From a bacterium (GTDB lineage: Bacteria > Patescibacteriota > Minisyncoccia > Minisyncoccales > UBA1441): 34,342 bases of DNA. Under the pieces are notes generated by a model. It was not told the origin of the DNA, did no database searches, and was given only the letters and a program-made list of their open reading frames with translations. Numbering within the stretch: position 1 is the stretch's first letter; every line of letters starts with the position of its first letter. Shown here in pieces: positions 17,404 through 20,189 of the stretch. A program made the translations under genes and the position numbers. Location of the stretch: the NCBI GenBank assembly GCA_029559515.1, contig JAKQBO010000014.1:1-34342 (forward strand), given 5' to 3'.

Positions 17404-18327
17404 CTATTTTTTCAAATAACGCTGAACCGCTAACAGAGTTGAAATAAAACCTAAGAACAGCGCTCCTATAATTTGGATGGCTAGCAGCCAAACAATATTT
17501 TCTGACAAATATTCCCAAAGATTAAATCCTGGGACCAGTGACTCCACCGAAGGAGTCAGGAAATAGCTGGCCGGCAAAATAATCAAAATGACCAAAAGAG
17601 CAGCAAATAGTCCGCTAACCATTCCCTGGACCACAAAAGGTGCCTTAATAAACCAAGACGAGGCTCCCACTAGTTTCATAGTCTCAATTTCGCTCCGAGC
17701 GGCATGGATCGAGACCCGAATGCTGCTAAAGGCAATTAACACAACTAAAACCGTTAAAAGCAAAGCAGCCACCACCCCAAACCACTGGATTCGACTGGTG
17801 GTGTTGAAGACCCGCTCAATCACATCTTCCCGGTGATGGTAATCAACCTTGCTCAGTATATCAGCATGATGCTGAGTTAAATAATCAGCCACCTCAGCAT
17901 AAAGATGAACTTCGCCCAAGGTTATATCGAGCGAAGCTAAAAAGGGATTCTCACCCACCTGCTCCAGGGCTCTTTGATACAAAGGGTCTCCGCGATAACG
18001 GTCTAAAAAATGACTCAAGGCTTCTTCTGGAGAGACAATTTTTATATCCTGAATTTGATCACCGAAATGATCCTTTAAGTCATCTCTGATCACGGCTATT
18101 TCGCTAACCGCTGTGCCTCGCTGGAAATAAGCAGCAATACTGACCCGCTCTTGCACCTGGTTAATAACGGCCTGAGAAAGACCGTTCAGTAAAAAAAGTG
18201 CGCTGACCAAAAAAATCACTACTGCAATTACCAGGACTGTAATCCAGCTTGATTCACGAGCCCGCTTAAAGTTGGTCCAGCCAAATAACAAAACGCGCTT
18301 AAGAGATGTCAATCTAGACATAATCAA
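17404..18327 (-). CDS. ftsX: Cell division protein FtsX
   Basis: Four-TM FtsX architecture; ESSWITVLVIAVVIFLVSALFLLNG, EIETMKLVGASSWFIKAPFVVQGMVSGL; overlaps ftsE by 4 nt. Confidence 0.95.
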   Translation of the reverse strand: MIMSRLTSLKRVLLFGWTNFKRARESSWITVLVIAVVIFLVSALFLLNGLSQAVINQVQERVSIAAYFQRGTAVSEIAVIRDDLKDHFGDQIQDIKIVSPEEALSHFLDRYRGDPLYQRALEQVGENPFLASLDITLGEVHLYAEVADYLTQHHADILSKVDYHHREDVIERVFNTTSRIQWFGVVAALLLTVLVVLIAFSSIRVSIHAARSEIETMKLVGASSWFIKAPFVVQGMVSGLFAALLVILIILPASYFLTPSVESLVPGFNLWEYLSENIVWLLAIQIIGALFLGFISTLLAVQRYLKK

Positions 18328-19007
18328 AAAACAAAGTTTCGGGTTTGATAATCATCACGAATAATTCTCCCCTGATTCAGAGCAATTACCCGGCCTTCGG
18401 TTTGAGCAATCACGTCCTTGTCGTGGGTCGCGACAACGACCGTTGTCCCCATCTGATGAATTTTATTCAACACTTCAATGATATCCCAAGTATTATAGGG
18501 ATCAAGATTGCCGCTTGGCTCATCGGCCATAATCACCTCCGGCTGGTGAATCAGCGCTCGGGCAATAGCGAGGCGCTGCTTCTCCCCGCCTGAAAGCTGA
18601 TGGGGAAAGTCGTCGGTCTTATCGGCCAGGCCGACAATTTCTAAAACTCGGGGCACGTCTCGCTCGATCTCCGAATCAGATGCTCCAATGACGCTTAAGA
18701 CGTAAGCGACATTGCCGTAAACCGTCTGCTGGGGCAACAGCTTATAATCCTGATAGACCACCCCTATCCGCTGCCTTAGCTGGCAGATCTGGCGACGATT
18801 CATCTCTAATACCGATTGCCCGTCAAAATAAACCTGACCCTCGGTTGGAAGCTCTTCGCGGATCAAGAGCTTAATTAAGGTCGTCTTGCCGGCTCCCGAT
18901 TTACCGACAATAGTCACAAACTCGCCCTGCTTAATCTCCAGGTTAATATTATCGAGCGCCAGGCAGGAGTTAGAATAAAGTTTGCTAACTTGGTCAAACT
19001 TAATCAT
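18324..19007 (-). CDS. ftsE: Cell division ATP-binding protein FtsE
   Basis: GKSGAGKTTLIKLL, LSGGEKQRLAIARAL, VIMADEPSGNLDP. Confidence 0.97.
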   Translation of the reverse strand: MIKFDQVSKLYSNSCLALDNINLEIKQGEFVTIVGKSGAGKTTLIKLLIREELPTEGQVYFDGQSVLEMNRRQICQLRQRIGVVYQDYKLLPQQTVYGNVAYVLSVIGASDSEIERDVPRVLEIVGLADKTDDFPHQLSGGEKQRLAIARALIHQPEVIMADEPSGNLDPYNTWDIIEVLNKIHQMGTTVVVATHDKDVIAQTEGRVIALNQGRIIRDDYQTRNFVF

Positions 19008-20110
19008 TGTTCAATTTAATTTCAGCTTTAATGAAATCGTCTAGCTGACCATCCAGCACAGCCTCGACATTTGACGTCTCTACCTCGGTTCGGTAATCTT
19101 TAACCAATTGATAGGGCTGGATAACATAAGAGCGAATCTGTTGGCCCCAAGCAGCGCTTTTGATGCCACTCTTCAGAGCCGAGATCTTCTGAGCCGCTTC
19201 TTCTGCCTGGCGCTTTTTCAATTTCGCCTTTAACAGATTCATAGCCATCTCGCGGTTGGCCCCCTGTGACCGTCCGGCTTGGCAAGCAACTTGAATTTTG
19301 GTTGGTAAATGGGTAATCCTCACCGCTGACTCGGTCTTGTTAACGTACTGGCCACCCGGTCCTGAAGCCCGATAAGTGTCGATCCTAAGATCGCCTAAAT
19401 TAATCTCCAGATCAGACTCGTTCTGGCCAAGAATGGGCAGCACCTCAACTAGAGCAAAAGAAGTGTGGCGTAGCTGCTGGTCAGAAAAAGGAGAAATTCT
19501 AACCAAGCGGTGAACTCCCTGCTCGTTCTTGAGATAGCCAAAGGCATTCTGGCCTTTGATCTCAATAACGACTGCTTTTAATCCAATCCGCCCATCCGGC
19601 CCGCCGGATTCACCAAAGGACTGGTCAAGAATAACCGAACTCCAGCCCTGTTGATCAGCATAGCGCCGATACATTCTAGCCAGCATCGCCACCCAGTCCT
19701 CGGCCTCCCGGCCACCGGCCCCAGCAGTAATTTCGATAATTGCGCCGCCGTGGTCGTACTGGCCGCTCAAGAAACGCTTGATCTCCTGCTGGTCAAGTCT
19801 CTCCTTAAGCTTGGCCAGCTGTCCCTCGACCATCGGCCGGAGACTGCTGTCATCGGCCGCCAGTTGACCCAACTCAGCTAAATCACTCACTTCTTTTTCT
19901 AAAAGAGCTAAACTCTCAACTTCCTCCTCTAATTCGGCTAACCGTTTACTGGTTTCTACGGCCTTCTCTCGATCTGCCCAGAAATCAGGCCGGCTCGTAG
20001 CCTCTTTCAGCTGCTCCGCTTTCTTTTTTTTATCCGCCCAGTTAAAGATAGCCCATCACTTGATGGACCTGCTCTTTCAATTGATTTATCTTGTCTTCTA
20101 GCGGTGTCAT
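19000..20110 (-). CDS. prfB: Peptide chain release factor 2, requires programmed +1 frameshift at CTT TAA C
   Basis: 0-frame MTPLEDKINQLKEQVHQVMGYL then TAA (20042-20044); +1 frame continues NWADKKKKAEQLKEATSRPDFWADREKA... into GGQ (ASGPGGQYVNKTESAVRITH) and SPF (RISPFSDQQLRHTSF) motifs. The ORF-track start (19890, GTG) is an internal codon. Confidence 0.95.
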
Positions 20111-20116
20111 ATCTTG

Positions 20117-20189
20117 AGCCGAGAGCGGGATTCGAACCCGCGACCTAGCGCTTACGAAGCGCTCGCTCTACCAACTGAGCTATCTCGGC
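20117..20189 (-). tRNA. tRNA-Thr (CGT), no CCA encoded
   Basis: Reverse complement GCCGAGATAGCTCAGTTGGTAGAGCGAGCGCTTCGTAAGCGCTAGGTCGCGGGTTCGAATCCCGCTCTCGGC; anticodon loop TTCGTAA. Confidence 0.95.

Follow-up and report, generated by a model that had tools for sequence, protein, structure and literature searches.

A hairpin in the prfB mRNA appears to take over the role of the internal Shine-Dalgarno sequence (SD) at the release factor 2 (RF2) frameshift site in Minisyncoccales, a bacterial order that lacks the anti-Shine-Dalgarno sequence (anti-SD) in its 16S rRNA; this is the better supported, and unexpected, result of an analysis that set out from an unusual stop codon in one prfB gene. 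The prfB frameshift is a textbook case of mRNA-rRNA pairing during elongation: in Escherichia coli, an SD at positions -9 to -4 pairs with 16S rRNA, straining the P-site CUU. We consider it highly probable that the gene described here carries an autoregulatory +1 frameshift in which an order-wide hairpin stimulator replaces the SD duplex and in which, in one species only, the stop is UAA. For the order as a whole, it is likely that the RF2 frameshift has been kept in the absence of an anti-SD by means of an intramolecular hairpin located where the mRNA would otherwise pair with rRNA, with UAA as an addition in that one species.

In the proposed mechanism, a hairpin would form in the mRNA behind the P site, ending 2-4 nt before the CUU codon, and would stand in for the duplex that the internal SD of E. 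coli forms with the anti-SD of 16S rRNA. In the simplest reading, the hairpin would act as the stimulator and the autoregulatory logic would be unchanged; that the hairpin drives the shift is what we infer from sequence comparison.

The window, i.e., the whole stretch of 34,342 nucleotides analyzed here, is a contig of a 457-kb assembly that is 94% complete. On its minus strand, the prfB leader opens with ATG at 20110-20108, and its 22 codons (MTPLEDKINQLKEQVHQVMGYL), the commonest leader length in the order (64 of 121 sites), end in ...MGYL and are followed by TAA at 20044-20042 and C at 20041, giving CTT-TAA-C. The +1 frame is open from AAC (20043-20041) to TAA (19002-19000) and encodes 347 amino acids beginning with NWADKKKK. 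This protein matches the NCBIfam prfB model TIGR00020 over its full length, with 420 bits against a curated cut-off of 370, its PCRF and RF-1 domains are complete, and both the SPF and the GGQ motif can be read, which identifies it as RF2; a short zero-frame reading frame ending in CTT plus a stop, with the main frame in +1, is the architecture of the programmed prfB frameshift (Table 1). Coordinates, frames and the 420-bit RF2 thus agree with the preliminary description, which had recognized an RF2 +1 frameshift site with a 22-codon leader ending in MGYL and TAA. It had also argued that UGA remains a stop, for example of ftsE, and that UAA is not a matter of simple recoding; the next gene, ftsE (18324-19007), indeed ends in TGA, and UGA is in use as a stop within the window. 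The alignment of relatives' prfB sites that it had proposed as a check for an indel yielded the same architecture with TGA in 120 of the 121 +1 sites of the order, and UBA1441, of the same genus, has TGA at the corresponding place; these sites rule out a chance indel. The relatives, together with the use of UGA as a stop, led us to reject recoding or an indel as an artefactual source of the UAA. No Rfam family matched at the prfB frameshift site.

Table 1. Features of the prfB frameshift locus and its flank, in coordinates of the window.
Feature	Position	Strand	Basis
prfB zero-frame leader ORF, 22 codons, ending in CTT TAA	20042-20110	minus	22 codons is the commonest length in the order
Main RF2 frame entered by the +1 shift (347 aa and stop), with SPF and GGQ	19000-20043	minus	Profile match
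Slippery P-site CTT (20047-20045) and stop TAA (20044-20042) in place of TGA	20042-20047	minus	
Putative stimulator hairpin, 5' arm GGTCCATC	20062-20069	minus	MFE -11.4 kcal/mol (z -2.9); arms covary over the 121 sites of the order
Hairpin loop AAGT	20058-20061	minus	Fold
Hairpin 3' arm GATGGGCT, where E. coli has its SD-like element	20050-20057	minus	Fold and covariation
tRNA-Thr(CGU), in the flank and outside the switch; 3' end 5 nt from the prfB ATG	20116-20189	minus	

Abutting the slip site, at 20069-20050 of the minus strand, GATGGGC pairs with an upstream GTCCATC in a hairpin of eight pairs, GGUCCAUC-AAGU-GAUGGGCU (-11.4 kcal/mol, z -2.9). Its 3' arm, which spans -10 to -5 in the order, reaches -3 in the window (counting the C of the P codon as 0). 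The hairpin is stable, adjoins the slip site and its pairing is under selection. As an internal SD, the same stretch is weak (dG -4.2, vs -9.9 in E. coli), and the organism's own 16S rRNA has no CCUCC. The earlier reading of GATGGGC as a degraded SD is therefore to be abandoned: it is the 3' arm of a conserved, covarying hairpin in a genome whose 16S rRNA carries no anti-SD.

Throughout the order the hairpin has been conserved, and its arms covary strongly, at synonymous codon positions too. In an ungapped alignment of the 121 +1 sites of the order, the two arms vary together, as in CCATCATTTGATGG, CCTCTATTTAGAGG, CCGCCAGTTGGCGG and CCTGCATCTGCAGG, and the six core pairs are formed in 90.9% of cells, compared with 74.7% after shuffling and 30-54% in slid controls. 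Double changes occur at all six core pairs, the observed values were reached by none of 500 shuffles, and RNAalifold recovers the same helix unaided. The column pair with the most mutual information among all those tested is -17:-8 (1.11 bits), which is paired in 92% of sites, where 42% are expected. All six pairs are intact in 69% of sites, vs a mean of 18% after arms were exchanged between genomes. Along the RF2 tree of 53 order members, each pair has changed state a minimum of 19-25 times, so that the covariation goes beyond what relatedness alone would give. Compared with sites from other phyla, those of the order have a more stable hairpin (median -8.1 vs -2.7 kcal/mol, p 4e-15) and a weaker SD (-5.6 vs -7.3, p 3e-4). 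Members of the class found with a covariance model, and for that reason kept out of the covariation tests, show the same pattern; in six of them (L306, L323, L335, L338, L339 and L341) the model match is 72 nt long, not 51. Within the order, the GC-rich hairpin is absent from the site in the frameshift-less genomes G017, G129, G127 and G057, and G007 has kept the frameshift and does not have this hairpin.

The 3' end of the organism's 16S rRNA, as read from DNA, is GGAACAATATTTCTTT, not GGATCACCTCCTTA; it ends in ...GTAGGGGAATCTGCGCGTGGAACAATATTTCTTT and contains no CCUCC. This motif is likewise absent from all 30 other 16S tails of the order (31 of 31 with its own), which are AT-rich and variable (L342:3950-4030, G000:C23; L345-L374). 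The organism's own 16S match spans 2,501 bases on a model of 1,533 positions, which suggests an insertion. Of the 28 long genes of the window, just three have an SD 4-mer before the mechanically predicted start. Loss of CCUCC is known from a few Candidate Phyla, namely Wolfebacteria, Campbellbacteria, Peribacter and SR1 (PMC10783764).

Hairpin and anti-SD loss are associated: at least five of the six pairs are formed in 23 of 25 genomes without CCUCC, compared with 4 of 22 with CCUCC (Fisher p 2e-7, with no correction for relatedness); a few class genomes in this comparison had been chosen through the covariance model. Outside the class, phylum relatives with CCUCC (GGATCACCTCCTTT) mostly have an AAGGAG-type SD in prfB, and in G684, which belongs to the class and has CCUCC, there is GGGGG and no hairpin of the order type. 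The link is not a strict one. The genomes G518, G301 and G266 have both CCUCC and a hairpin at the same position; G364 and G256, of one family (f73; L386 and L394), have CCUCC and a hairpin in another register (e.g., CGACTAG...CTAGTCG), with no SD-like sequence at their prfB sites; and the class members G563, G670 and G708 have CCUCC and neither a strong SD nor the hairpin of the order. Because some genomes with CCUCC carry the hairpin, it may predate the loss of the anti-SD.

An ordinary site of the E. coli type, in which the G-rich 3' arm is an internal SD that pairs with 16S rRNA while the hairpin plays an incidental part or merely masks it, is very unlikely. Many sites of the order do have AGAGGA or GGAGGA at SD spacing, and about a quarter of the 3' arms would also fit an SD (dG <= -6 in 33 of 121). 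However, none of the 31 16S tails offers the CCUCC partner, 36 of the 45 sites with a weak SD (dG > -4.5) keep at least five of the six pairs, and covariation with the partner arm is also seen for arms unlike an SD (GATGGA, GGCGGA and AGCCGA among them).

A hairpin as stimulator has a precedent in an engineered mRNA: with 70S ribosomes in vitro, a hairpin upstream of CUUUGA reached about 60% of the +1 shifting obtained with an SD, and this stimulation acted only without RF2 (PMC6321510). As proposed here, a hairpin just before the slip site replaced the SD duplex in that system, but the hairpin of the window is natural, order-wide and evolutionarily maintained. With prfB of E. coli (CTT TGA C, AGGGGG), the window shares the gene, the position, the slippery CUU, the in-frame stop, the +1 direction and the autoregulatory layout on one site; it differs in its UAA stop, in that no SD:anti-SD pairing is possible, and in the covarying mRNA hairpin at the position of the SD. 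An altered or occluded anti-SD is a lineage trait of Bacteroidia and Weeksellaceae as well, akin to that of the order; Weeksellaceae with an altered anti-SD, however, are uniformly without the prfB frameshift, whereas the order kept it and has the hairpin (PMC8710568). In the open literature, we found no published case of a natural prfB hairpin; for Patescibacteria or the Candidate Phyla Radiation, nothing turned up on frameshifting in prfB or RF2. Loss of bL9 (rplI), reported in connection with prfB frameshifting (PMC13245932), was also considered as a cause of the unusual stimulator and was set aside, as bL9 was found in 10 of 10 genomes tested.

The absence of the frameshift from Weeksellaceae had been taken to mean that mRNA-rRNA pairing is critical. 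An order without an anti-SD that retains the switch, with many natural compensatory changes, suggests that any duplex rightly placed may do. The question of whether the SD acts by its sequence or as a duplex behind the P site would thereby become directly testable, the sites of the order providing a natural series of hairpins for assays. Furthermore, frameshift predictors based on the SD may miss or misjudge hairpin sites.

The UAA itself is, as far as the compared sequences indicate, a lineage-specific G-to-A change known from one assembly. UBA1441, the only same-genus relative compared, with an RF2 79% identical to that of the window, reads CATCTTTGACTGGGCG (GGGTCCATCAAGTGATGGGCCATCTTTGACTGGGCG) with a TGA stop where the window reads TATCTTTAACTGGGCG (AGGTCCATCAAGTGATGGGCTATCTTTAACTGGGCG); a single G-to-A change thus makes the stop UAA and replaces Asp by Asn at the first +1 codon. 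Among the +1 sites of the order, TAA occurs in the window alone, and a further 86 motif-bearing sites from the class and phylum include none; apparent TAA and TAG stops met with at first in the class set turned out to be spurious frames that lack the motif. Among 46 sites from other phyla, 6 have TAA (Lachnospiraceae, Veillonella and other Clostridia-type genomes); upstream of these CTT-TAA sites (L038, L047, L048, L053, L060 and L081), the context is mostly of the AGTGAGGGATTCA type. Prince et al. (2025, PMC12421855), who surveyed over 12,000 genomes, reported CTTTAA, in several phyla, from 1.4% of 8,164 motif-bearing genomes and TAG at the prfB site from none, and argued that in most taxa it is mainly RF2 that reads UAA. 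The UAA of the window accords with the survey's pattern of a premature stop readable by RF2 (UGA or UAA, never UAG), and shares with its CTTTAA sites the position after CUU; the survey sites have a hyper-conserved SD-like element, and its text mentions neither a hairpin nor Patescibacteria. Given the 6 of 46 sites and the 1.4%, UAA at prfB is a rare, recurrent and already known variant, so that the UAA in place of the canonical UGA, as read in the preliminary description, stands but is not new.

That the true base is G (UGA), and the UAA an error of sequencing, assembly or strain, is very unlikely. The variant comes from one metagenome-assembled genome, the sole same-genus relative has TGA, and TAA is found in 0 of 206 other sites of order and class. 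Yet UAA recurs naturally in Lachnospiraceae and Veillonella, and the 1.4% base rate of real UAA (PMC12421855) is, by our estimate, far above that of a specific single-base consensus error, which makes a real variant the likelier explanation.

Accepting UAA as real, RF1 could also end the leader frame in this one species. RF1 is present in the genome of the window, so UAA is readable by both factors, and loss of RF1 was accordingly discarded as the reason why UAA is tolerated, although the protein is short: it has 249 aa (G000:C23:8214-8924; L033:709-1455, minus strand), is encoded directly after rpmE and is without the N-terminal portion of its PCRF domain, the profile match starting at position 112 of 361. 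Many members of the order have a similarly short RF1, others one of full length. RF2 feedback should persist with UAA, but be less exclusive to RF2; owing to the presence of RF1, it is possible that the feedback senses total release capacity, as the preliminary description had suggested. A decaying prfB, in which RF1 also reads UAA, little full-length RF2 is made and the regulation is being lost, would fit the Asn in the first +1 codon, where members of the order as a rule have Asp or Glu. This is highly improbable, as the remaining RF2 is intact and well over the cut-off, UGA is still the stop of window genes, and the hairpin is retained with eight pairs.

The leader peptide follows the arms of the hairpin: the residue pairs His-Met, Leu-Glu and Arg-Ala track base pairing, and synonymous third bases track their partners, in the Leu codons TTA/TTG (TTR, p 9e-7) as in NNY codons (p 7e-16). 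That the palindrome reflects a constraint on a coiled-coil leader peptide, not on RNA, is scarcely credible, for although Leu and Asp are conserved in the leader's heptad-like pattern, the residue pairs obey codon complementarity, the covarying synonymous third bases already contradict it, and some frameshift-less genomes keep the peptide without the GC-rich arms. In the stretch 20108-20189 of the minus strand, prfB starts 5 nt past the 3' end of tRNA-Thr, the second of two tandem tRNAs, so that its mRNA would be nearly leaderless after tRNA processing.
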